Positions 52,306-64,000 of a DNA stretch of 64,000 bases are shown one piece after another. The stretch's first letter is position 1. Each line of letters opens with the position of its first letter. The notes below the pieces were generated by a model, which was not told the DNA's origin, did no database searches, and saw nothing but the letters and a program-made list of their open reading frames with translations. A program made the translations under genes and the position numbers. Location: assembly GCF_035918095.1 (NCBI RefSeq), contig NZ_CP109137.1, positions 1,862,001-1,926,000 of the forward strand, read 5' to 3'. Source of the stretch: Streptomyces sp. NBC_01750. GTDB taxonomy: Bacteria; Actinomycetota; Actinomycetes; Streptomycetales; Streptomycetaceae.

Positions 52306-53196
52306 TCAGGAGAAGACCGACGCGCAATTCGTCGGCGTCGCATGCGCCGGGTCAAGCGCGTTCGCCACCTCGTGGTAGGCGATCCGGTCGAACAGCCCGA
52401 TCGCCAGATGCTCCGACAGGTCGACCGCACACAGGTCCTGGAGAAGGACGTTGCGCACGTCCGGTCCGACCAGGTACGCCGAACGGTACGGGGTGACGAC
52501 CTCGTCGTAGCGCGTGGCAATGACGGTGTAGTGCACGCCGGGCACGGTGTCGCCGCCCGCGTTGAGCTTGGTGAGGAAGGCGGAGCCGATCATCTGGTCG
52601 GCCAGCCCCGGGGTGGCGGTGTTGAGCAGATCCTCGGCGCCGGGGAAGTACGGCAGCAGCTTGGTAAGTCCGCTCAGCGTGGTGCCGTGATTGTCGGGCC
52701 CGAGGCCGACCAGCGCGTTCACCTTGTCGGCCCCGCCCAGGAACTTGAGGTAGTAGCGCGGCATCATGCCGCCCTGGGAGTGGCCGACGAGATCCGCTTT
52801 GGACGTGCCGGTCGCGGCGAGCACCTTGTCGACGTACGTGTCGAGCTGCTCTGCCGACTTGTCGATCGGGCCGAGGCCGTAGAAGAGCGGCACGCCGGGG
52901 AGCTGCCCGTAGTCCAGGCTGAAGACGCAGTAACCGCGGTTCACCAGGTACGGAGCGAGGGCGAGCCAGTTGTCCACGGCGTTCCCGAGGGTTCCGTGGA
53001 CCAGGACGACGGGGCGGGGATGGGCGGCGGAGGGCTTGCAAGAGTAGTTGTTCCATCCGCTGTGGGGAGCGGATTCCGCATTCGCAGAAGCGGCATTGGC
53101 CGAATCGGCGTGCGCGGCGGCGGCGGGGGTGAGGGTGACGGCCGCGGCCAGGAACAGAGCGGCCAGCGGTCTGAGGGCACGTTTCCAGAGCAGCAT
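52306..53196 (-). CDS. secreted alpha/beta hydrolase, lipase/esterase
   Basis: A 296-residue secreted lipase-like protein. Signal peptide 1-31 (LAALFLAAAVTLTPAAAAHA). Oxyanion region PVVLVHGTLGN, nucleophile elbow LVGHSQGGMMPRYY with the Ser, and PDNHGTTLSG. The Asp is expected in ATRYDEVVTPY and the His in LSEHLAIG. Four Cys fit two disulfides. It matches the EstA/LipA-type extracellular triacylglycerol lipases of actinomycetes. ATG after AAGGAGACTG. Confidence 0.93.
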   Translation of the reverse strand: MLLWKRALRPLAALFLAAAVTLTPAAAAHADSANAASANAESAPHSGWNNYSCKPSAAHPRPVVLVHGTLGNAVDNWLALAPYLVNRGYCVFSLDYGQLPGVPLFYGLGPIDKSAEQLDTYVDKVLAATGTSKADLVGHSQGGMMPRYYLKFLGGADKVNALVGLGPDNHGTTLSGLTKLLPYFPGAEDLLNTATPGLADQMIGSAFLTKLNAGGDTVPGVHYTVIATRYDEVVTPYRSAYLVGPDVRNVLLQDLCAVDLSEHLAIGLFDRIAYHEVANALDPAHATPTNCASVFS

Positions 53197-53326
53197 CGAG
53201 CAGTCTCCTTGCGGCTCAAGGGAGTAGCGATGGCTGGTATGTGGCGCTGCCGCTAACTTACGCACGAGTAACGAAGGAATGGAAGTTACGTGCCGGTAAA
53301 AACTGAATATGTGTCAATAGCAAGTG

Positions 53327-54322
53327 TCACGCGGCGAGTGAGCCCGGCACGACCGCCTGCGACCCGAACCTGGCCCGCGCCCGGTCCGCCACCGCCTCGA
53401 TCTGCCGCGCCCGTTCGTCCGCGGGGTCGAACGTCAGCTGCCGCGCGGCCCGTTCGACAGGTGTCAGATCCTCCGCGCGCAGCGACAGGCTCCGCACCCT
53501 GGCCCGCTGCAGGCCGAGCGATTCATGGATCCGGTACGCGACGCCGGTGAGCGCCACGGAGTGAGCGGTCGGCTCGCGCAGGGCGCGGGCACGCGTGGTC
53601 GTCGACCGGTCGGCGTACCGCACGGTGAGGCTCAGCGAGCGGCACACCTGGCCTTCCCCGCGCATCCTCAGCCCCAGTTCCCCGGCGATCGAGAGCAGCG
53701 CCCTGCGGTGCTGAACCGGATCCAACTCATCGCGCATAAAGGCGCGTTCGGCGGCAATCGAGCGTGCCGTGGCGTTCGGGACGACCTTCGTACGGTCGAT
53801 GCCGTGCGCCCGCTCCCACAACTCGCGCCCGGCGCGCGCTCCGACGATCCGCTGGAGTACGGCGAGTGGCGCGCCGGCGACCCTGCCGATGGAGTCGAGG
53901 CCGTACGCGCACAGGGTGCGGGCCGTCGCCGTCCCGACCCCGTCCAGCGCGGCGACCGGTTTGCCGGCCAGGAATCCTGCCGCCTCGTCGTCCGCCACCA
54001 CCAGGGTCGTCCCTGGCGTGGCCTGCCGGGCCGCCATCCTGGCCAGCATCGGGCTCGGTCCTGCCCCGATCACGCAGTCCACCCCGCAGTGCGCGAGGGC
54101 CCGCACCCGCAGTAGCGAGGCGAGCTGGGCCGCGTCCCGTCCGAAGTACCGCTCGGCGCCCCGTACATCGATGAGCGCGGCGTCCGGCGGGAGCGCCTGC
54201 ACGACGGGGCTGATGTCCTCGGCCAGACCGAGCAGCACGGGCAGCGCCGCCTCGACCCCGGCGCCCGTCTCGCGCCCCGTCTCACGCGGCGGCGGCTGCC
54301 GGAAGCGTACATAGAGGATCAT
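53327..54322 (-). CDS. ImuB-like Y-family polymerase homologue (catalytically dead)
   Basis: A 331-residue protein with the palm, helix-hairpin-helix (LDGVGTATARTLCAYGL) and little-finger domains of Y-family polymerases. The acidic residues needed for catalysis are missing: the first motif reads MILYVRF in place of DMDAFF, and the second LIDVRGAERYFG in place of SIDEAY. That is the ImuB pattern: a scaffold bringing DnaE2 to the clamp. A clear beta-clamp motif was not found at the C-terminus. It overlaps the DnaE2 pseudogene by four bases (ATGA), so it lost its upstream partner gene but is itself intact. Confidence 0.87.
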   Translation of the reverse strand: MILYVRFRQPPPRETGRETGAGVEAALPVLLGLAEDISPVVQALPPDAALIDVRGAERYFGRDAAQLASLLRVRALAHCGVDCVIGAGPSPMLARMAARQATPGTTLVVADDEAAGFLAGKPVAALDGVGTATARTLCAYGLDSIGRVAGAPLAVLQRIVGARAGRELWERAHGIDRTKVVPNATARSIAAERAFMRDELDPVQHRRALLSIAGELGLRMRGEGQVCRSLSLTVRYADRSTTTRARALREPTAHSVALTGVAYRIHESLGLQRARVRSLSLRAEDLTPVERAARQLTFDPADERARQIEAVADRARARFGSQAVVPGSLAA

Positions 54323-55813
54323 CCCGCGCTCCCAGGGCTCTGGTGCCACAACTTCCGTCCGGTGGCGGCCTGTTTCTCACCCGGCGGCTGAAGATCCGCC
54401 CAGGGGTTCAGCTCATAGCCCGTCGGCAGCTGGATCCGGCGGCCGTTGTCGCCCGGCCCATCCCCTTCCACAGGTACGGGCGCGGCCAGCCGCGCCGCCG
54501 CGTCGAGCCCACCCGTGCGCCGCAGCTCCACCAGCTCAGCCAGGTTCCAGGCCGCCCCGCCGACCACGCTGAGGCTGCGCGGTCCGCGCCGCTGCACCAC
54601 CCCCGCGCACCAGCAGCAGCCAGGAGTGGAAGACAGTGTGCGCGCACGCGGCATGGCTGTCGTCGAAGAAGGCCAGGTCGACCAGGCCCGTACCGTCGTC
54701 GAGCGTGGTGAAGATGACCCGCTTGCCGGACCGGATCGGCGGTGTCTGGGTGGCCGCCTTCGCACCCGCGACCAGCACCGTCTGCCCGTGCCGTGCCGAG
54801 CGCAGCCGCTGCGCGGAAAGCACTCCCAGCTCCTTCAGGAAAGCGTGGTGATCGTCCATCAGATGGCGGGAAGCGTCCATGCCGAGGACGCCGAGTTCGG
54901 CGCTGAGAGGCGTTCCGCGTCGCCGAGGTCCGGGAGACCGACCGGAGCAGTCTTCTGCCCGTTCGCCTGGGGGTACCTCCCACGCTGAAAGCTGTGAGGG
55001 AGGGAGTTGACTTCCGTACGCTCCTGAACCCGCCCCGGAACCCCGGTGGCCCCGATGGAGTTCGGCGAGGTGCAGCAGCAGATCGCGCCGGTTCGCGCCA
55101 AAGGCGTCCAACGCGCCGACCTGGGCCAGCCGTTCGGCGACCGGCCGCCCCGGACGGGCCCGCTGCCAGAAATCCAGCAGCGAGGAGTAGGGCTGCCCGG
55201 CCTCGATCCGCGCCGCCTCCACCCCGCTGATTCCATGGACGTCCGAGAGCGCGAGCCGCAGCCCCCACACTCCAGGCCCAGGCCCGCCATCGGACACCAG
55301 TTCGATTCGGTGAGCGACCGCAGACCGGTTCACATCCAGCGGCAGCACCGGCACTCCGCGCCGCCGCGCGTCCGCCAGCAGCAGCCGCTTCGGATACATC
55401 CCGGGGTCGTGCGTGAGCAGCCCGGCGTAGAAGGCCGCCGGATGGTGCGCCTTGAGCCACGCCGACTGGTACGTAGGCACGGCGAAGGCCACCGCGTGCG
55501 CCTTGCAGAAGCCGTACGAGCCGAAAGCCTCGATGATCTCCCAGGTACGGGCGATCGCTTCCGGCCCGTACCCCTTCGCCTCCGCGTGCCGCGCGAACCA
55601 GACCTTGATCTTCCCCTGTGACTCGGGGTGGGAGAGCCCGCGCCGCACCCGGTCGGCCTCGTCCAGACCGCAGCCGGTCATGATGTGCACCATCGCGATG
55701 ATCTGCTCATGGAAGACGACCACTCCGTACGTCTCCTTCAGCGGTCCTTCCAGATCCGGATGCGGATAGCGGACGGCCGCCCGGCCGTGCCGGGCCTCGA
55801 TGAACGGCATCGA
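54319..55813 (-). pseudogene. dnaE2: dnaE2 remnant, 5' half lost and frameshifted
   Basis: Only the C-terminal ~490 residues of an error-prone PolIII alpha are left, beginning abruptly at MPFIEARHGR. The PHP domain and all catalytic aspartates are gone. What remains matches the thumb/fingers end and OB fold: YGVVVFHEQIIAMVHIMTGC, YGFCKAHAVAFAVPTYQSAW, KAATQTPPIRSGKRVIFTTL. Near 54600-54604 a run of five C (one base too many) shifts the frame; the correct end, ending HQSPGSAG, lies in the other frame. An intragenic repeat also lies inside. It differs clearly from the intact copy at 57.9 kb, so it is not a recent duplicate. Confidence 0.9.
54966..55005. repeat. small palindromic repeat inside the dnaE2 remnant
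   Basis: CCTGGGGGTACCTCCCACGC, then TGAAAGCTGTGAGGGAGGGA, folds into a hairpin. It resembles a dispersed repeat common in Streptomyces (from memory). Confidence 0.55.
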
Positions 55814-56062
55814 TGCCGCGCCACGGGGTGAGGCTGGATTTGCACCGCTCGTCGCTGTTGAGCTGCTGGTAGGTCGCGCGGTCAGGCACGTGTGTGACTC
55901 TCCCCGATGCGATACCTCAGGGAGGGACAGGCGACGACCGATGAGTTTCTCAGTGATCCGCAGTCAAAGATCATTGTTGGTGCACCGCAGCCACGAGTGT
56001 GATCCAATCGCGCACCGGCCGAATCTCCTGAGAACCAGACACGAGACACCGAGGATCCTTCG

Positions 56063-56357
56063 ATGCGTACCCTGATCAGCACCGCCTCCATCTCCCTCGA
56101 CGGCGTCGTGGAGGCCCCTGGGGGTGAGCCCGGATACCGGAACTCCGGATGGACCTTCAAGGACATCGAGTTCCTCCCCGAAGCATTCGACATCAAGGGC
56201 CGGGAGCAGAAGGAAGCCACCGCGATACTGATGGGCCGCACCAGCTACCAGGCATTCAGCCCGGTATGGCCCGACATGGAGGACTTCGCCGACTACAAGG
56301 TGATGCCGAACTACGTCGTCTCCACCACCCTCACCGAGGACGACCTGGTGTCGAACC
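56063..56357 (+). pseudogene. RibD-C/dihydrofolate reductase-family gene, 3' truncated
   Basis: The N-terminal ~98 residues are normal for the family: MRTLISTASISLDGVVEAPG, then KEATAILMGRTSYQAFSPVW, then VMPNYVVSTTLTEDDLVSN. The remaining ~90 residues are missing: right after TLTEDDLVSN the sequence becomes the end of a gene on the opposite strand. The joined frame ends at 56422. It cannot hold a complete NADPH site. Confidence 0.82.
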
Positions 56358-56672
56358 GTCCCGGGGCCGTTGGCTGCGGGCTGCCGCAGCGTGGCAGATG
56401 GCAGTGCGGGCGCTGTGACTGAGAGCGAAGTTCAGCAGGACACAGCCCTGTCGGTCCGGGTAATGGGTGGTCAGGACGTCGATGGGCAACAGAGCATCGA
56501 GTCGATGTCGAAGTACTCGCAGCGCGCGCCCTGGAGTCTTGGCGCGCTGCAGGGCCAGCAGCCGGGTGCGCTCGGTGTTGGCGCCCAGAGGCACGGCACG
56601 ACGTGCAATACGCAGCTCACAGCCGGTGGCAGGTCGGGTCAGGGCGATCTCAATCGCGTGGCGCGCGGTCAC
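56331..56672 (-). CDS. plasmid-like hypothetical protein, probably 3' truncated
   Basis: A 113-residue frame from GTG: VTARHAIEIALTRPATGCEL, then AKTPGRALRVLRHRLDALLP and IDVLTTHYPDRQGCVLLNFA. The composition is clearly protein-like. The last ~15 residues run into the sequence of the truncated reductase gene, so the true end is lost near 56360-56400. The family is not recognised with certainty; similar small proteins are recalled from Streptomyces plasmids and integrating elements. Its GTG overlaps the stop of another minus-strand frame (GTGA). Confidence 0.5.
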   Translation of the reverse strand: MTARHAIEIALTRPATGCELRIARRAVPLGANTERTRLLALQRAKTPGRALRVLRHRLDALLPIDVLTTHYPDRQGCVLLNFALSHSARTAICHAAAARSQRPRDGSTPGRPR

Positions 56673-56881
56673 GGCTGTGTCGCCTTCGGGTTCCGGTCGG
56701 CAGGTCCCTGACGTCGGGTGAGTGTCGGGAGCCGAGTGTGAATGTGCTCGTGGTGGATGAGCGGGTCGAAGGGCTCCCACTCGGCCACCGCCACGTCGGC
56801 GGCCGCGGCAATGGGGGCATGTTCGGGGCAGCGTTGGGCCCTCCAGCGCAGTTGCCGTCGCTCTTTCTTGAGCGGACAACG
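56669..56881 (-). CDS. small hypothetical frame coupled to the plasmid-like gene
   Basis: A minus-strand frame reads KKERRQLRWRAQRCPEHAPI, then AEWEPFDPLIHHEHIHTRLP and LTRRQGPADRNPKATQP, then TGA overlapping the GTG of the next gene. No ATG or GTG start is seen upstream before a stop near 56942, so it is either a 5'-lost gene or uses an unusual start. It is too short for most gene callers. It conflicts with an overlapping plus-strand frame in the same stretch. Confidence 0.35.
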   Translation of the reverse strand, partial: RCPLKKERRQLRWRAQRCPEHAPIAAAADVAVAEWEPFDPLIHHEHIHTRLPTLTRRQGPADRNPKATQP

Positions 56882-56927
56882 GCGCGGAACAGGATTGGGA
56901 GGAGCGCGCGCCCTATGGCAGATTCGG

Positions 56928-57533
56928 GTGCGGGAGATGCTCAGCTACCTGGCCGCAGCCTTGCCGAGCCACACCGGGGCTGCGGCCCGCCTGCTCGCTG
57001 TGCAGTGCGCACTGCGCATGGACTCCAAGGGGCAGGTCCGATTGCCCGCCGGGGTCCTGCGCAGTCTGTGCCTCAGCCGCGATCCGGCCCCGTGGAGTGA
57101 GCTGGAGCAGGCAAGGTGGCTTTACAGAACGCCGACTTCCCTGGACGTTGCCGTCAGGGTAGTGGTCGCCCAGATCCTCGACGGCGGGTTGTTTGCTCAG
57201 CGACCCGCTCGTCCGGACCGCAGGAGCGCTGCGGACTGGGCGCTGCGCGCGGCAAGGGACGGCTGTGTGGGCGCCGGCGACCCGCCTCTGCGACTGTTCG
57301 CCCTCTGCCTAGCGGCACACGCGGAATCCTCGGCCGGTCGCGGGTGCACCGAGATGGACCGGATCGCACGTGAGTGTGGGCTCGCTCCGGCGGCTCTGTT
57401 CCCCGTGCTCGACCAGTTGGCGGCGTTCGGCCCCCTCGCCTCCTGGAACGTGACCCTTGCCTCGGGAAACCTGTACTGGGAGCTGCTGCCGAAGGGTGAT
57501 CAGCGGCAGTCGGCCGATCCGACGGCGACGTGA
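56928..57533 (+). CDS. hypothetical protein with possible winged-helix end
   Basis: A 201-residue protein. VREMLSYLAAALPSHTGAAA opens the readable part; an in-frame extension back to 56742 overlaps the minus-strand frame and looks non-coding. The C-terminal third, EMDRIARECGLAPAALFPVL, looks like a helix-turn-helix. Family not recognised. It is divergent from the plasmid-like gene, a layout found in mobile elements of actinomycetes. Confidence 0.45.
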   Translation: MREMLSYLAAALPSHTGAAARLLAVQCALRMDSKGQVRLPAGVLRSLCLSRDPAPWSELEQARWLYRTPTSLDVAVRVVVAQILDGGLFAQRPARPDRRSAADWALRAARDGCVGAGDPPLRLFALCLAAHAESSAGRGCTEMDRIARECGLAPAALFPVLDQLAAFGPLASWNVTLASGNLYWELLPKGDQRQSADPTAT

Positions 57534-57861
57534 ATCCCGAGGGCTGACGCGACCGACCTGAGACTCGATCCGTTACGGAAAGTGTCGTTCATGCTGCAAA
57601 CCGTTGCTCGTCCGTCCTCCTTGAGCCGCTGAATGACGGCGGCGTGGTGCGCGCCATGGGGCGATTTCCTCCAACTGCTCCGCCCGGTTGGGGAGGTGAC
57701 GGGAGGCGCCCGTTTCGGCCGCTGCTCACCCCACCAAAGAATCGTTGCTGTGTTCGAATCTGGTCGCTGACCGGGACTGATGGGGTTAGAGTAATCGAAC
57801 GAGCGTACGATGAACATATCGGGTGTATGGCCGAAAAGGGGTGGAGTGATGGAGGTGTGGC
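57534..57861 (+). other. 328-base promoter region of the intact dnaE2 cassette
   Basis: No gene was found. The last ~120 bases are AT-richer and hold a LexA-box-like palindrome. TACGAT at 57806 could serve as -10 box but no good -35 box lies at the right distance. GATGGAGG lies before the dnaE2 start. Confidence 0.45.
57795..57810. promoter_or_regulatory. candidate LexA (SOS) box before dnaE2
   Basis: TCGAACGAGCGTACGA matches the actinomycete SOS box TCGAAC-N4-GTTCGA with one mismatch. It lies 51 bases before the dnaE2 start and overlaps a possible -10 box. LexA control of dnaE2/imuB is known in mycobacteria. Confidence 0.65.
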
Positions 57862-60800
57862 ATGGCGGGCTTCGCCCATCTGCACGTCGCATCCGGTTAC
57901 TCCGCCCGCTACGGCGCCGCCCACCCCGAGCATCTCGTCCGACGGGCGGCCGAGCGGGGCATGACGGCGCTCGCGCTCACCGACCGGGACACGGTCACCG
58001 GAGCCGTCCGGTTCGCACAGGCCTGTGCGAAGGAGGGGGTCCGGCCGATCTTCGGTGTCGACCTGGCGGTAGAGGCTCTTGCGCCCCCGCCGCCTGCCCA
58101 GCGCCACCGCACCCCGGCGCGCGGTGGCGCGCACGTCGTCGAGCCGCCGCTGCGGTTCGTGCTGCTCGCGCAGAACCGGGCCGGATGGGCGCGGCTGTGC
58201 CGCATCACCTCGGCCGCCCACGCCGGCACCGCGTCCGGCGCGGCGCCGGTGGTGGTGCCGTGGGAAGCGCTACGCGAATACGGCGGCCCCGGCCTGACCG
58301 TACTGCTCGGACCGCTCTCGGAGCCGGTGCGGGCCTTGGCGGCTGGGCGCGAAGACGTCGCGGCCAAGCTGTTGGCACCGTGGCAGGAGATCTTCGGTAG
58401 GGGAATCAGGCTGGAAGCTGTTGTGCATAAACGTTTCGGCGTCGGTCCGGGATCCCTGCGGCTGGCAGCCCGGACCCTTGCGCTGGCCGATCGCACCCGC
58501 ACCACCGCCGTGCTCTCCAATGCCGTCCGTTACGCCGACCCGGACCAGCACCGTCTCGCCGACGTCCTGGACGCCGCGCGGCTGCTGCGGCCCATCGACC
58601 GGCGCAACCTGGACAGCGGGCAGCGCTGGCTCAAGGACGAGAGAGGAATGGCGGGCGTCGCGCGAATGATTGCCGAATGCGCCGGAGCGGACGTCCGGCG
58701 GGCACGTCGTCTGATGGCGGACACCGCCGCTACGGCGGTCGCATGCACCGTCGACCCGGTGGCGGACCTCGGGCTCGGCGCCCGGCACTTCCCGGAACCG
58801 TCGCTCTTCGGCGCCGAGCCCGGAGCGGGCGGAGCCGCACAGTTGCTGCGCCGGCAGTGCGAGGAGGGTCTGGCCCGACGGGGCCTCGATCGCGACCGCG
58901 CGGCGCTTGACCGGCTGGACCAGGAGCTCGATGTGATCTCCCGGCTGGACTACGACTCGTACTTCCTCGCCGTCCACCAGGTCGTGGCCGACATCCGGGC
59001 CAAGGGCATCCGGGTCGCGGCCCGCGGCTCGGGCGCCGGGTCGATGGTCTGCCACGCCTTGGACATCGCCACCGCCAACCCGCTCGACCACCGGCTGCTG
59101 TTCGAACGCTTCCTGAGCGTGCGCCGGGCATCGCTGCCCGACATCGACATCGACGTGGAATCCGCCCGGCGCCTGGAGTGCTACGACGCGATCTTCGACC
59201 GGTTCGGCAAGGAGCGGGTGGCGGTCACCGCGATGCCCGAGACCTACCGTGCCCGCCGGGCCCTGCGGGACACCGGCCTCGCGCTGGGGATCGCGCCCGC
59301 GGACGTCGACCGGATCGCCAAGAGCTTCCCGCACCTGCGGGCCTCGGACATCACCGGCGCGCTCGCCGAGCTGCCGGAACTGCGGCAGCTGGCGTCCGAG
59401 GCACACCGGTACGGACCTCTGTGGGAGCTTGCCGAAGGCCTCGACTCCCTGGTCCACGGCATGGCCATGCACCCCTGTGGCGTGGTCATCAGCGACGCGA
59501 CCCTCCTGGACCGGCTGCCGGTGCAGCCCACACCGCAGGGCGACTACCCCATGGCCATGGCGGCAAAGGAGGAGATCGAAGACCTGGGCAATATCAAACT
59601 CGACGTCCTGGGTGTCCGCATGCAGTCCGCGATGGCCCACGCCGTCACCGAGATCGAACGGACGACCGGCAACCGCATCGACCTGGACGACCCACAGCAG
59701 GTACCGCTCGACGACGTCTTCGCATTCAAACTCATCCAGGAGAGTCAGACCCTGGGCCTGTTTCAATTGGAGTCACCTGGTCAGCAAGATCTTTTGTCGA
59801 GACTGCAGCCACGCGATCCTCAGGACGTCATCGCGGACATCAGTCTCTTCCGTCCCGGTCCGGTCGCCGGGGGCATGCCTGAGCGGTACATCGCCGCACG
59901 CCATGGCGGCACACCCTCGTACGCCCATCCGGACCTCGAGCCGGTGCTCGCCGACACCTACGGCGTGACCATCTGGCACGAGCAGATCATCGAGACGCTC
60001 TCGGTGATGACCGGCTGCGACTACGCGCTGGCCGAGATCGCGCGGCGAGCGCTCGGCGAGAAGGAGCGACTGCCCCGAATCAAGGACTGGTTCCATCACC
60101 AGGCACACGCCCGCGGTTACAGCACGGAGGTGCGGGACGAGGTCTGGAAGACCATCGAGGCCTTCGGCGCCTACGGCTTCTGCCGGGCGCACGCGGTCGC
60201 CTTCGCCGTACCGGCTCTGCAGAGTGCCTGGCTCAAGGCGCACTACCCGGCATTCCTGCTGGCCGGCCTTCTCGAACACGACCCCGGGATGTGGCCCAAG
60301 CGCGTCCTCGTCTCCGACGCCCGTCGGAGTGGCGTACCGGTTCTGCCCGTCGACATCAACCACTCCAAGGTGAAGCACACCGTAGAGAAGGCCGACGGAG
60401 AGCAGTGGGGCGTGCGGCTCGCACTGTCCGCGGTGCACGGTATCAGCGAGGAAGAGTGCGCCCGGATCGAGGAGGGACAGCCGTACGGATCGCTGTCGGA
60501 CTTCTGGCAGCGGGCCCATCCCAGCAGACCGGTCGCCGAACGCCTCGCGGAGATCGGTGCCATGAGCTCCCTCCACGACGGACGCCTCACGCGACGCGAC
60601 CTGCTGCTGCAGATCGCCGAACTCCACCGGCAGTCCCGCACCCGATCGGCGGGCAAAGGCCAGCTGCCCATCGACACGAACGCCGTCGGCGGAGCGGAGC
60701 CGAGCGGCCTGCCGGAGATGACCGGACGCGAAGCCCTGAGCGCCGAGCTGAGCACCCTCGGCATCGACGTCTCCAAGCACCTGATGGAACACCACCACCG

Positions 60801-61317
60801 ACTCCTGCGCGAGATCGGCGCGACCGACGCGGCGCACCTGGCCGGAATGCGCCCCGGTCAGCAGGTCCTCGTCGCCGGCGTACGGGCCTCCACCCAGACC
60901 CCGCCGATCGCCAGCGGCCGACGCATCATCTTCGTCACCCTGGAGGACGGCTCCGGCTTGGTCGACCTGGCCTTCTTCGAGGACTCCCACCCGGCCTGCG
61001 CGCACACCGTCTTCCACAGCGGGTTGCTGCTGGTGCGCGGCACGGTCCAGGTGCGCGGCACCCGCCGCACCGTCGTCGGAACCATGGCCTGGGACTTGGA
61101 CGAGATCGCTGCCGCCCGCCGCGACAACGGCCCAGAGGCCGCGCTCGCCCTCCTTGGATCCAGTCACCCGCACCCGACTCCTGCACAGCCGCAGCGGACC
61201 CTGGCCAACGGCACCACAGGCGCTCGGCTGCACCCGTATGCCGACCTGCAGCCCGCCGGTAGCCGTTCGGCAGACCTGAAGAAGTTCGGCTACACCAGCC
61301 CAGGGAGTGCAGGATGA
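57862..61317 (+). CDS. dnaE2: error-prone DNA polymerase III alpha subunit DnaE2
   Basis: A full-length 1151-residue DnaE2, the polymerase of damage-induced mutagenesis. The N-terminal PHP domain starts AHLHVASGYSARYGAAHPEH and is degenerate compared with proofreading DnaE. The palm carries the catalytic triad: Asp427 and Asp429 in SLPDIDIDVES and Asp581 in NIKLDVLG. The fingers and beta-binding region follow, then an OB fold with GVRASTQTPPIASGRRIIFV. GATGGAGG precedes the ATG; the ImuB-like gene overlaps its end by four bases. There is no imuA' gene here. An SOS-box-like site lies upstream. Confidence 0.95.
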   Translation: MAGFAHLHVASGYSARYGAAHPEHLVRRAAERGMTALALTDRDTVTGAVRFAQACAKEGVRPIFGVDLAVEALAPPPPAQRHRTPARGGAHVVEPPLRFVLLAQNRAGWARLCRITSAAHAGTASGAAPVVVPWEALREYGGPGLTVLLGPLSEPVRALAAGREDVAAKLLAPWQEIFGRGIRLEAVVHKRFGVGPGSLRLAARTLALADRTRTTAVLSNAVRYADPDQHRLADVLDAARLLRPIDRRNLDSGQRWLKDERGMAGVARMIAECAGADVRRARRLMADTAATAVACTVDPVADLGLGARHFPEPSLFGAEPGAGGAAQLLRRQCEEGLARRGLDRDRAALDRLDQELDVISRLDYDSYFLAVHQVVADIRAKGIRVAARGSGAGSMVCHALDIATANPLDHRLLFERFLSVRRASLPDIDIDVESARRLECYDAIFDRFGKERVAVTAMPETYRARRALRDTGLALGIAPADVDRIAKSFPHLRASDITGALAELPELRQLASEAHRYGPLWELAEGLDSLVHGMAMHPCGVVISDATLLDRLPVQPTPQGDYPMAMAAKEEIEDLGNIKLDVLGVRMQSAMAHAVTEIERTTGNRIDLDDPQQVPLDDVFAFKLIQESQTLGLFQLESPGQQDLLSRLQPRDPQDVIADISLFRPGPVAGGMPERYIAARHGGTPSYAHPDLEPVLADTYGVTIWHEQIIETLSVMTGCDYALAEIARRALGEKERLPRIKDWFHHQAHARGYSTEVRDEVWKTIEAFGAYGFCRAHAVAFAVPALQSAWLKAHYPAFLLAGLLEHDPGMWPKRVLVSDARRSGVPVLPVDINHSKVKHTVEKADGEQWGVRLALSAVHGISEEECARIEEGQPYGSLSDFWQRAHPSRPVAERLAEIGAMSSLHDGRLTRRDLLLQIAELHRQSRTRSAGKGQLPIDTNAVGGAEPSGLPEMTGREALSAELSTLGIDVSKHLMEHHHRLLREIGATDAAHLAGMRPGQQVLVAGVRASTQTPPIASGRRIIFVTLEDGSGLVDLAFFEDSHPACAHTVFHSGLLLVRGTVQVRGTRRTVVGTMAWDLDEIAAARRDNGPEAALALLGSSHPHPTPAQPQRTLANGTTGARLHPYADLQPAGSRSADLKKFGYTSPGSAG

Positions 61318-62294
61318 CCACGCGTCTGCGGCACATCGCCCACCTCCATCTGCACGCCGCACTGAGCGAGGCCCAGCACGACGACGTAATCGAACTGATG
61401 TCTGGCGTCACGCCCCACGTCCAGGCCATCCCACCCAACGCCGTCCAGCTCGACCTGACCTCGGCGCTCAGATACTTCGACCTGTCTCCCTACGACGTCG
61501 TTCAGTTGACGAAGCTCAGGCTGAAGGCCCTCTACAACATCGACAGCAGCGCCGGGCTCGCGAACAACCGCATGCTGGCTGCCATGGCGGCCGACGCGTC
61601 CGCGCCGGGAGACACCACCTGGGTCCCCACCGGACAAGTGACCGACTGGCTGTACCCGCGGCCGGTCACCGCGCTGCCGGGGATCGGCCGCGCCACAGCG
61701 GAGACGCTCAGCAGGTACGGCCTGCACACCATCGGCCAGATCATCGACATGCCTCCGGCTACCTTGCAGCGACTTTTCGGCGCGGGTCCTGCTCGGCTGC
61801 TGGCCGAGCGCGCTCGCGGCCACGACCCCCGCCCGGTCACCCCGTTGGAACCGGCAGCGCACCTGATGGCCGACCTTGTGCTGGAGCGGGACTGCCTGGA
61901 CCCGGCACAGCATCACCGTGCAGTCCTGGGGCTCGCCGACCAGATTGGCCAACGCCTACGCGGCGAAAGCCAGATCACGAGACGACTCACCCTCACGGTG
62001 CGGTACGCCGACCGCAGTTCCACGACCCGCATGCGTACGCTGTCGGAACCCACCAACCACTCACCCGCCCTCGCCGCAACTGCCCTGGGTCTGCTGACCG
62101 CCCTCGGGCTGCAGCGAGCGAGAGTCCGCGCCTTCGTGATCCGCGCCGACGGCCTGCTGCCAGCGAACAGTGCCTACCGCCAGCTCTCTCTGGATCCCAC
62201 CGATGCCCGTGCCCGCGCAGTCGAAGCTGCCGCAGACCGTGCCCGTCGACGCTTCGGGCCCGAGGCTGTACGTCCAGCCGCTCTGGCTGACTGA
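61314..62294 (+). CDS. imuB: ImuB-like Y-family polymerase homologue (catalytically dead)
   Basis: A 326-residue Y-family fold. Helix-hairpin-helix is TALPGIGRATAETLSRYGLH; the little-finger domain follows with TRRLTLTVRYADRSSTTRMR. Catalytic acids are missing: motif 1 reads IAHLHLHAAL and motif 2 VQLDLTSALRYFD. It therefore acts as the ImuB scaffold for DnaE2. It is coupled to dnaE2 by ATGA. Compared with the 53.3 kb paralogue it is clearly related but divergent. The usual C-terminal extension of mycobacterial ImuB (clamp motif, ~200 residues) is absent: the protein ends right after the little finger. Confidence 0.88.
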   Translation: MTTRLRHIAHLHLHAALSEAQHDDVIELMSGVTPHVQAIPPNAVQLDLTSALRYFDLSPYDVVQLTKLRLKALYNIDSSAGLANNRMLAAMAADASAPGDTTWVPTGQVTDWLYPRPVTALPGIGRATAETLSRYGLHTIGQIIDMPPATLQRLFGAGPARLLAERARGHDPRPVTPLEPAAHLMADLVLERDCLDPAQHHRAVLGLADQIGQRLRGESQITRRLTLTVRYADRSSTTRMRTLSEPTNHSPALAATALGLLTALGLQRARVRAFVIRADGLLPANSAYRQLSLDPTDARARAVEAAADRARRRFGPEAVRPAALAD

Positions 62295-62580
62295 CTGCTT
62301 TCAGCGCGGACTGACCGATTTCGAGACACGGGCCGGGGCACTGTGGCTGGACCCCGTACGCCTGCCCGAACTCAGCGAATACAGCTTCGCCCTGCGCTAT
62401 CGAGGCCACTGGGGCATCCGGCTCCGCATGCGGCCCGGACAGCTCGAAGTCGGCGTGCCGCCGTCCGACCGGTTGCCGTTCGCCATAGAGTTCCCGGACC
62501 CGCGCGGTCTCCCTCGCACCCGGCAAATCCTGCTGGCTGACACTGCGGGATCACTGATCCCCCGGCGACCCCGGGCTCGG
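62288..62580 (+). pseudogene. C-terminal fragment of a GH65-family phosphorylase/hydrolase
   Basis: Running on from the imuB end in another frame: DCFQRGLTDFETRAGALWLD, then PVRLPELSEYSFALRYRGHW, then LRMRPGQLEVGVPPSD. This is the end of glycoside hydrolase family 65 proteins (trehalose, maltose or kojibiose phosphorylase type). The catalytic barrel is missing. The fragment joins the imuB end without a gap, marking a recombination point. Confidence 0.82.
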
Positions 62581-62595
62581 GCGCCACCCTGCTGT

Positions 62596-63474
62596 TCACC
62601 GGTGCGCGATGACAGCGACGGGCGCGGCCGAGTGATGCAGGACGGCATGGGTGACCGGGCCGATATGCGCTGCGAGCGGCGCGTCTTGGATACGCCGACC
62701 GATGACCATGAGCTCGGCGTCTGCCGACTCGTACACCAGCTGCCGAGAGGCCCCGCCGAACAGTGCTTGCTCCACGACGTTCACGGATGGGAACTTCTGT
62801 CGCCATGGCATCAGCATGTCGCTCAGCGCCTGTGCGATCTCCTCTCCGGCGTCGACAGCTGCGTAGTCTGTGTAGACCGGCCGCATCGTCCAGCCGTGCA
62901 CTACTCGAAGACTGGCGGCCCGCCTGGCTGCCGCATCGAAGGCGAAGGCTATGACCGCGTCGCAGTCCTGGCGGATGTCGACCCCGAGGACGACGTCACG
63001 GTACTCGCCCGACGCTTCGGCCGGTGCGGAGTCCGAGGGCGCGCCTGCTCGCCCCTTTGCCGCCCGTACGAGTACGACCGGCTGCTCGGTGGCGCTCACC
63101 GTGGCCAGACCGACCGAACCGAGGAGGAAGCCCGCGACGCTACCCAGCCCTCGCGAACCGAGTACGAGCACATCTGCTTCGCTGGCGGCGGTCGCCAGAC
63201 CGGCTGATGACTGCTGCCCCGCGAAGTGCCGAATGGTGACCTCCAGCTGCGGGTGGCGTTGCCGCACATCGGCGGCGGCCCTCTCCAGCATCTCCTCGGC
63301 CCAGGTGCGCCGCATCTCAGGGGTGATGGCGGGCCGGGTCAGTGCCGAAGGCCCTTCCTCTACGTGAACGAGGTGCAGCTGCACCCTGCGCAGCAGCGCC
63401 TCTCGCGCAGCCCACTCGGCGGCGGCGAGGCTTTCCGGTGTGCCGTCCAGACCGACGGCGACATTGCGCGTCAT
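62596..63474 (-). CDS. tandem-domain universal stress protein
   Basis: A 292-residue protein of two UspA domains. Domain 1: NVAVGLDGTPESLAAAEWA to GSRGLGSVAGFLLGSVG. Domain 2: DVVLGVDIRQDCDAVIAFAF to IGRRIQDAPLAAHIGPVTHA. Domain 1 keeps the ATP-binding G-x2-G-x9-G-S/T motif in recognisable form (GSRGLG, then GS and the S/T region). ATG start after GAAGAGG. A second Usp gene is divergent from it. In actinomycetes such tandem Usps belong to hypoxia and dormancy responses. Confidence 0.93.
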   Translation of the reverse strand: MTRNVAVGLDGTPESLAAAEWAAREALLRRVQLHLVHVEEGPSALTRPAITPEMRRTWAEEMLERAAADVRQRHPQLEVTIRHFAGQQSSAGLATAASEADVLVLGSRGLGSVAGFLLGSVGLATVSATEQPVVLVRAAKGRAGAPSDSAPAEASGEYRDVVLGVDIRQDCDAVIAFAFDAAARRAASLRVVHGWTMRPVYTDYAAVDAGEEIAQALSDMLMPWRQKFPSVNVVEQALFGGASRQLVYESADAELMVIGRRIQDAPLAAHIGPVTHAVLHHSAAPVAVIAHR

Positions 63475-63920
63475 GATGAGAACCTCTTCCGGTTGGATGT
63501 CCGCCATGCGGGATGTGTCTCCGCGCGGTGCCCTATGGCCGCGCTTCCAGGGTCACTGACCGTCGGCCCTGGCACGAGAGGCCAAGGGGCCCTGGCCGGG
63601 TCGAACGGCCCCAGTGACGCTCGAGTCAGCCAGCCCGACAGCGGCGCGTCGAGCACCGCATCCGCTCTTACCGGGTTGTACGCCGACACAGCCGTTGTCA
63701 TGACCGTCAGCTGGTGCCAGCCGTGGTGGCCTCGTTGCCGAACGGTTTGGTACCGCTCGCCGTCCAGACAGGTCCGGTCGGCCCTGGCGTCGCGTGGGCG
63801 GGGCGGGAAGGCTGGTATAGGAGCGCCAGCATTGCGACGACGTTGGCCGTCCGGGGACCGGCCTGCGACGCGCGGACGCCGTTGGCGCCGGTGACACCCC
63901 CATCGAAAGGGGAAGACGAC
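63475..63920. other. 446-base gap between divergent universal stress protein genes
   Basis: No gene was found. GC-rich with several short inverted pieces, such as GGCCAAGGGGCCCTGGCC near 63581. CGGGGACCGGCC near 63855 faintly recalls OsdR/DosR boxes but does not match well. Both Usp promoters should lie here. Confidence 0.4.
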
Positions 63921-64000
63921 ATGAATCGGCCCGTCGTAGCAGCAATCGATGGTTCGCCGGCCAGCCTGGCGGCGGCGGACTGGGCGGCGAGGCAAGCTTT
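63921..64000 (+). CDS. universal stress protein, N-terminal part
   Basis: Only the first 26 residues are in the window: MNRPVVAAIDGSPASLAAAD and on. This is the beta-1/Walker-like start of a UspA domain. GAAAGGGGAAG precedes the ATG. It is divergent from the tandem Usp gene. Confidence 0.88.
   Translation, partial: MNRPVVAAIDGSPASLAAADWAARQA

Follow-up and report, generated by a model that had tools for sequence, protein, structure and literature searches.

We analyzed a 64,000-nucleotide stretch of the chromosome of Streptomyces sp. NBC_01750 (the window; positions 1862001–1926000 of contig 1 in a 9.0-Mb genome, designated G000 in the comparisons below), which contains two cassettes that each pair dnaE2, a DNA polymerase gene, with a gene for a DinB2-type protein of the Y family (Table 1). 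The cassettes point away from one another across ∼2 kb, as the initial annotation had described, and only the plus-strand pair is complete. The minus-strand dnaE2, which belongs to the locus occupied by dnaE2 in relatives and is called resident here, lacks its first 667 codons and changes frame near position 54607; to the 5′ loss and frameshift already noted in the annotation we add an extra out-of-frame stretch at ∼54900–55010. Its partner, the orphan dinB2, has an in-frame ATG nine codons inside the frame that yields an ATGA overlap with the remnant. The plus-strand dnaE2 and its partner likewise overlap by 4 bp (ATGA), the operon arrangement of the DnaE2B–iPolY–RecA system considered below. 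The resident and plus DnaE2 proteins share 56% amino acid identity (411 aligned positions), the two partners share 47%, and the copies are not sisters in phylogenetic trees. The earlier judgment that they differ too much for a recent duplication is therefore borne out, and a duplication of that kind was rejected.

Table 1. Features of the dnaE2 region, in window coordinates
Feature	Position	Strand	Description
Lipase gene	52306–53265	−	Syntenic left flank of resident dnaE2 locus; Pfam Lipase_2; same neighbour in relatives
Orphan resident DinB2-type gene	53327–54349	−	Intact frame, 340 amino acids; Pfam IMS, IMS_C, IMS_HHH_1
Resident dnaE2 remnant	54319–55807	−	Codons 668–1166; located by tblastn with G030 DnaE2
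DHFR-family gene, 5′ part	55920–56356	+	Cut off at ∼56356; RibD_C; blastn to plasmids
Element left-end region	56359–57589	+	Includes open reading frame 56742–57533 (p263); homologous to outer AC550 element
LexA/SOS-box-like site TCGAACGAGCGTACGA	57795–57810	+	67 bp upstream of plus dnaE2
Plus-type dnaE2, complete	57862–61317	+	1151 amino acids; PHP, DNA_pol3_alpha, finger, HHH_6 and OB domains
Plus-type DinB2-type partner, complete	61314–62294	+	326 amino acids; Y-family
Start of island cargo	62295–64000		Universal stress protein at 62596–63507 (−)

Synteny with relatives that carry a resident cassette ends at window position 55808, inside the resident dnaE2, and returns 92.8 kb further on, at chromosome position 2010613, with the trypsin-type gene that adjoins dnaE2 in those relatives. 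The intervening DNA has the plus cassette at one end and a broken tyrosine-recombinase module at the other. It extends past the window to approximately chromosome position 2010314, where a 171-amino acid gene is found with the C-terminal part of a recombinase-like gene; what remains of recombinases is 378 amino acids of one tyrosine-recombinase-like gene, with weak Phage_integrase matches only. The island genes include universal stress proteins, CBS-domain-like proteins and others, a cargo that we take to resemble the Streptomyces dormancy regulon. A search of chromosome positions 1862001–2300000 found no match to the N-terminal 667 codons of the resident dnaE2, and the PF07733 domain that these codons would include has three matches genome-wide, in the plus copy and in two other complete DnaE genes. 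At 0.39 Mb on the chromosome, far from the core, there is a complete DnaE gene besides the copy at 2.42 Mb.

Based on these sequence comparisons, a large mobile island probably inserted into the resident dnaE2 and brought its own complete replacement cassette. What is observed directly is the break in synteny with the relatives, two island ends that recur in the strain AC550_RSS872, and clean cases of split dnaE2 genes elsewhere. The initial annotation had also proposed that an incoming cassette replaced a resident one, and this part of its account stands, with added support from plus-type genomes, ten of 14 of which have their plus-type cassette at the resident locus. The implied order, in which the resident gene decayed first and was replaced later, was rejected because the resident dnaE2 stops where an insert begins, the left end of which is the new cassette.

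The closest counterpart of the island is an insert in the resident dnaE2 of AC550_RSS872 (the outer insert), where residues 76–339 of the resident partner lie on one side and residues 3–633 of the resident DnaE2 on the other, 110 kb apart. The shared left end (window 56359–62295; 78–88% nucleotide identity, in pieces) comprises the p263 region and the new cassette. The left-end region itself is 78.5–78.6% identical to AC550 positions 84362–87236 in two pieces, p263 has no Pfam match, and nucleotide homology stops at the end of the plus partner gene. The shared right end (chromosome 2008646–2010314; 85.6% nucleotide identity) consists of the 171-amino acid gene, whose product is 85% identical between the two strains, and the recombinase. 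Eleven of the 89 genes of the G000 island and its flanks match the AC550 region: five end genes, five resident flank genes, and the remnant, which matches another dnaE2. Because only the ends are common to the two strains, the dnaE2 cassette forms part of the backbone in this pair and the cargo has been exchanged, which is the variable-cargo property of the integrative elements named GInt and SE. AC550 keeps a fuller recombinase set and, beyond the recombinases, the 5′ part of the resident dnaE2. Both are lost in G000, and the missing 667 codons may therefore be explained by deletion. Positions 80001–200000 of the AC550 contig also show an apparent nesting, with a dnaE2-bearing element in the resident dnaE2 and, in the dnaE2 of that element, a second insert bearing a third dnaE2 cassette.

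A search of 12 genomes, mostly picked for odd contexts and conditioned on a plus-type partner, revealed dnaE2 genes split around an intact dnaE2 in three. The split gene of Streptomyces sp. SA15 is of plus type and is divided into residues 1–586 and 582–1151, which lie 101 kb apart; that of Streptomyces sp. S.PNR 29 is of resident type and is broken near residue 553, with 48 kb separating the parts; and AC550_RSS872 has a plus-type dnaE2 split near residue 776 by a 36-kb inner insert. Inside each insert, a DinB2-type gene follows a complete dnaE2, which is of plus type in SA15 and S.PNR 29 and of a third type in AC550. Direct repeats of 5–7 bp are present at all three pairs of junctions: TGGGCG or TGGGCGT in SA15, with inverted arms TTTTCGCCGC, CCCCG or ACCCCG in S.PNR 29, and CGCGCC at the inner AC550 insert. 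With the outer AC550 insert and G000 included, the breakpoints vary (approximately codons 553, 583, 633, 668 and 776).

The mobility genes of these inserts differ and represent two classes of transposition. SA15 and the inner AC550 insert have trios of long recombinase-like genes at one end (485/568/722 and 510/621/703 amino acids). Of the six genes, two show a weak integrase-type match in Pfam and the other four lack any, and the recombinase sets of SA15 and of the inner and outer AC550 inserts are ∼25–29% identical where mutually detectable. The S.PNR 29 insert encodes matches to TnsA (PF08722, E = 7.4e-6), TniB (PF05621, 3.4e-12) and TniQ (PF06527, 4.9e-20), together with a TnsB whose rve match is weak (5.1e-5, below the rve cut-off), and thus has the TnsA, TnsB, TnsC/TniB and TniQ gene set of Tn7-like elements. 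Tn7-like transposons make 5-bp target duplications and have TGT...ACA ends. In S.PNR 29, CCCCG flanks the insert on both sides and the left end begins with TGT; the right end is without a clear ACA. Relatives of its TniQ (E ≤ 1e-60) occur in six of the 159 Streptomyces genomes of our comparison set. Close to its left end, the same insert holds an SMODS (CD-NTase-like) gene and an AAA ATPase, suggestive of CBASS-type defence cargo.

Despite these differing mobility genes, p263-like sequence precedes the carried plus-type cassette in G000, the outer AC550 insert, SA15 and S.PNR 29, which suggests that the cassette moves as a module between element types. In SA15, divergence between the carried and the split dnaE2 is greatest in the first 90-bp window to the right of the insertion (the lowest identity of 108 windows) and is not extreme to the left (rank 77 of 112). 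This pattern, from one case and one side, is a hint that the carried dnaE2 has lost the target site.

An account without any targeting element would have the cassette and stress island arrive through recombination, illegitimate or homologous, in a region prone to rearrangement, with accidental truncation of dnaE2. The state of the G000 boundaries is in keeping with such ordinary transfer and counts against insertion by an element: neither exact junction survives, dnaE2 codons are missing, no direct repeat was found between the boundaries (there is one 15-bp inverted match, E = 0.099), and the left margin of the island carries a plasmid-type DHFR-family fragment that is 82–91% identical in nucleotide sequence, where matching, to genes of at least 25 plasmid records. 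Moreover, the AC550 insertion lies at codon 633 and the G000 break at codon 668, and the split-gene cases come from draft assemblies and a conditioned search, such that three of 12 is not a frequency. In the set of 159 genomes, plus-type dnaE2 (at least 87% identity to the plus copy) is present in 14 including G000, at the resident locus in ten, as judged by at least one flanking marker, and away from it in three (G014, G047 and G156); the ten are mostly without a trace of an element, and plain allele exchange could explain many of them. The recombinase family of the G000 island gave 28 hits in 24 of the 159 genomes, of which the G000 hit alone has a dnaE2 hit within 100 kb (as assessed by eye, with hits on other contigs unplaceable). 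With one of 28 hits near dnaE2, a family that generally targets this gene was rejected.

Ordinary transfer could also draw on the homologous stress-type cargo found beside plus-type cassettes at the locus in two other strains (NRRL WC-3618 and S. hygroscopicus ATCC 21589), which could mark a shared hot spot. Nevertheless, we consider this explanation unlikely, because the same pair of ends flanks unrelated cargo inside the resident dnaE2 of AC550 and elements that carry dnaE2 interrupt three further dnaE2 genes.

If an element did insert, as we propose, it would have been large and integrative, with several tyrosine-recombinase-like genes forming a module in a GInt- or SE-like layout, and would have entered the resident SOS-inducible dnaE2–dinB2 operon with a LexA-boxed dnaE2–dinB2 cassette at the end opposite the recombinases. 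Because it would bring its own cassette, interruption of the host copy would be compensated on arrival. A later deletion would then have removed the recombinase-side junction, most of the recombinase genes, and resident codons 1–667 with the promoter, an order of events that we infer; the outcome would be a 3′ remnant, an orphan dinB2 and an imported cassette pointing the opposite way. Insertion in the same orientation followed by deletion would leave a new dnaE2, a new dinB2 and the old dinB2 in a row, as in the relative G049. Further deletions may account for the plus-type cassettes at the resident locus of relatives and for the leftover dinB2 genes of G049 and cf386, the latter having a leftover resident dinB2 and a second dinB2 of the new type. 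Inverted insertion would leave inverted cassettes like those of S. colonosanans, S. antioxidans and Actinacidiphila guanduensis. When named genomes were scanned with the plus partner, 43 loci were obtained; 16 have the cassette between the resident trypsin-type and lipase genes, and three of these are inverted as in G000 (L244, L250 and L255).

More broadly, we lean toward the view that unrelated classes of mobile elements in Streptomyces (a Tn7-like transposon and several diverged lineages of tyrosine-recombinase type) repeatedly land in dnaE2, each carrying a complete and often divergent dnaE2–dinB2. Insertion would then swap the polymerase rather than knock it out, and repeated insertion, even of one element in another, would drive turnover together with deletion.

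The initial annotation called the partners ImuB-like, a name that we correct here. Active Y-family enzymes carry a SIDE catalytic motif, in place of which the window proteins have PPDA and PPNA, indicating a lost active site. The IMS profile is matched only from position 83 or 67 of 148, with the N-terminal part missing, and both proteins (326–340 amino acids) end shortly after IMS_C and leave little room for an ImuB-C domain. Genome-wide, IMS_C has three matches, the two window genes and one elsewhere. According to the literature, the Streptomyces partner (scDinB2 or ‘iPolY’) forms an inactive group apart from ImuB and pairs with DnaE2B and, as proposed, RecA, with ImuA and ImuB absent (PMC6511836, PMC12926913); imuA is missing from DnaE2B genomes (PMC12926913), and a review reports the 4-bp dinB2–dnaE2 overlap in most Streptomyces (PMC3901139). 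By this literature, the window partners are DinB2-type inactive Y-family proteins and not ImuB proper.

For the SOS box we used the sequence TCGAAC-N4-GTTCGA, which we take to be the consensus. The site upstream of the plus dnaE2, TCGAACGAGCGTACGA, has one mismatch and is a putative LexA site by sequence. If up to one mismatch is allowed, 46 of 64 dnaE2 genes have a site within 430 bp upstream; if up to two are allowed, 56 of 64 do, leaving 8 of 64 with none; among 1800 random 430-bp windows from the same loci, with real sites included, the corresponding numbers are 64 and 152. LexA control of dnaE2–dinP is described for S. venezuelae (PMC9380542).

The annotation had further suggested that the orphan partner may still bind the imported DnaE2 as an alternative second scaffold. 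The orphan does have an intact frame, and its substitutions resemble in pattern those of intact relatives, with a ratio of nonsynonymous to synonymous differences (pN/pS) of 0.36 (intact pairs 0.39–0.45) and 14 lineage-specific residues versus 14. However, the adjacent dead dnaE2 is equally unchanged: compared with G030, the remnant has a pN/pS of 0.20 over 353 codons (intact pairs 0.23–0.26) and nine lineage-specific residues versus ten in an intact relative. With the dead gene thus indistinguishable from live ones, its loss is too recent for the intactness of the orphan to be informative on function. In addition, the region that carries the SOS-boxed promoter in relatives is absent upstream of the remnant. 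A SOS-box-like site within the remnant (55290–55305) is one of three matches in the window with at most two mismatches, and shuffled sequences average 2.54. The leftover resident dinB2 of G049 is decaying, with 57 unique residues versus five in G007, a changed C-terminus and a pN/pS of 0.64 (intact pairs 0.20–0.22), and the two partners in G000 are only 47% identical.

DinB2-like genes that stand alone, with open frames and without a dnaE2 in the stretch examined, occur in G030, G020 (two), G017 and G011; the copies of G020, G017 and G011 have SOS-box-like sites with one or two mismatches upstream and the G030 copy has none. Several partners per polymerase may thus be tolerated, yet a second-scaffold role for the G000 orphan seems improbable to us, and this part of the annotation did not hold up. 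We give slightly less credence still to retention of the orphan for a dnaE2-independent job in end filling of linear replicons. DinB1 or DinB2 is needed for end patching, according to PMC4513846, which cites Tsai 2012, but the plus cassette provides another DinB2-type protein, the genome has a third IMS_C gene, and recent loss alone accounts for the intact frame. We infer that the imported pair now serves as the working SOS mutasome and that the orphan dinB2 persists as a recent relic. The comparison cautions against inferring function from an intact orphan gene when a certainly dead neighbour is equally intact. The DinB2-type gene that follows a resident-type dnaE2 in G004 and G038 is strongly divergent, which suggests partner exchange.

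A phylogeny of both copies had been proposed in the annotation as a check on replacement by transfer. The DnaE2 tree (a quick tree of 63 proteins) and the partner tree (59 proteins) were built after exclusion of low-identity hits and of hits below 600 and 200 amino acids, respectively; the remnant and fragments of G028, G040, G042 and G060 were among the rows excluded, and further rows were dropped from the DnaE2 tree (G031) and the partner tree (G020, G031, G055 and G058). The plus DnaE2 falls in a 22-row clade (Shimodaira–Hasegawa-like approximate likelihood ratio test, SH-aLRT, 100) that holds all eight sampled plasmid rows and is separate from a 35-row chromosomal DnaE2 clade (97). It shares 92% identity with the G040 copy and nests within that group, with a support of 82 for the pairing with G040 itself. 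The plus partner lies in an 11-row group, weakly supported in its inner branching, together with G040, G013, G011, G014 and others. The orphan dinB2 is sister of the G030 copy (100/97) and groups with the resident cassettes, and the remnant is 78–79% identical to the genes of relatives.

In an rpoB tree of 50 of the 61 genomes, with plus-type G116, G119, G142, G156 and G161 outside its sample, G000 belongs to a clade of nine, outside the clade that holds most plus-type genomes sampled. G040, G013, G011, G014, G003, G049 and G059 fall in a clade of 17 alongside resident-type genomes, and plus-type G047 is placed elsewhere. Because its DnaE2 belongs to the plasmid clade, the orphan groups with resident cassettes and the host lies outside the rpoB clade of the plus-type relatives, we conclude that the plus cassette was, as judged from sequence, acquired by transfer. 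Two ancient paralogous cassettes with differential loss and no transfer, a scenario that could cite the several genomes holding both chromosomal-type and plasmid- or plus-type dnaE2 (e.g. G014, G019, G021 and G025), is highly improbable given that the plus dnaE2 nests with its 92%-identical G040 counterpart although the species lies outside that clade, and given how low the identity of the remnant to the resident genes of relatives is.

Of 72,556 plasmid records searched by tblastn with the plus DnaE2, 102 cover at least 80% of it in one place. A repair gene lies beside dnaE2 or within a few genes in six of eight plasmid loci (Ku in four, ATP-dependent ligase in two); one of the eight has neither Ku nor ligase annotated within 7 kb, and another yielded no annotation. 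The plasmids with Ku- or ligase-associated dnaE2 are from Streptomyces and Embleya, and one (L131) also has a TnsA-like gene nearby. G040 has a second plus-type dnaE2 at 1.09 Mb, off the resident locus, which is 5′-truncated (residues 643–1151, in two pieces) and accompanied by a partner.

Several known systems resemble parts of this arrangement. The DnaE2B–iPolY(scDinB2)–RecA system likewise combines dnaE2 with an inactive DinB2-type gene, often in one operon and without ImuA or ImuB, but it is presented as a host system; the word ‘plasmid’ is absent from both main texts, and mobile carriage or interruption is not described in the sections available (PMC6511836, PMC12926913). Compared by description in the available sections, GInt (PMC5385486) and SE (PMC10214605) elements similarly place three tyrosine-recombinase-type genes at one end together with a small fourth protein, exchange their cargo and show a site preference, and the 6-bp SE footprint resembles the 6-bp repeats of the split-gene inserts (PMC10214605). 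Unlike GInt and SE, the elements described here have their site inside dnaE2 and a complete dnaE2–dinB2 at the other end, and SEs are reported only from Gammaproteobacteria (PMC10214605). The gene set of three recombinases and a small fourth protein is incomplete in G000, which is at best a broken member. Tn7-like elements with TniQ-type target selection have TnsA, TnsB, TniB and TniQ at one end, as in S.PNR 29, and insertion of such an element inside a gene (comM) has been described; dnaE is absent from the main text of that paper, which in the sections available describes no replacement copy of the interrupted gene (PMC10293859). The pSVJI1 operon pvnz_37140–37135 is, like the plus cassette, a case of a LexA-controlled Y-family gene, there on a Streptomyces plasmid, but in the sections available it comprises a hypothetical protein and a DNA polymerase IV gene, with no dnaE2 named (PMC9380542). 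Among the matches listed in the literature searched, outside which most subscription papers lie, dnaE2 as an insertion target and islands with a replacement dnaE2 are unreported.

Damage-induced mutation has been associated with DnaE2-type polymerases. The accessible part of an earlier study describes the distribution of these enzymes as patchy and plasmid-assisted, without giving a mechanism (PMC3919608). If our interpretation is correct, islands that insert into dnaE2 and bring a replacement copy would provide such a mechanism. Mobile elements would then be seen taking over the mutation machinery of their hosts, a proposition that is testable in soil bacteria.

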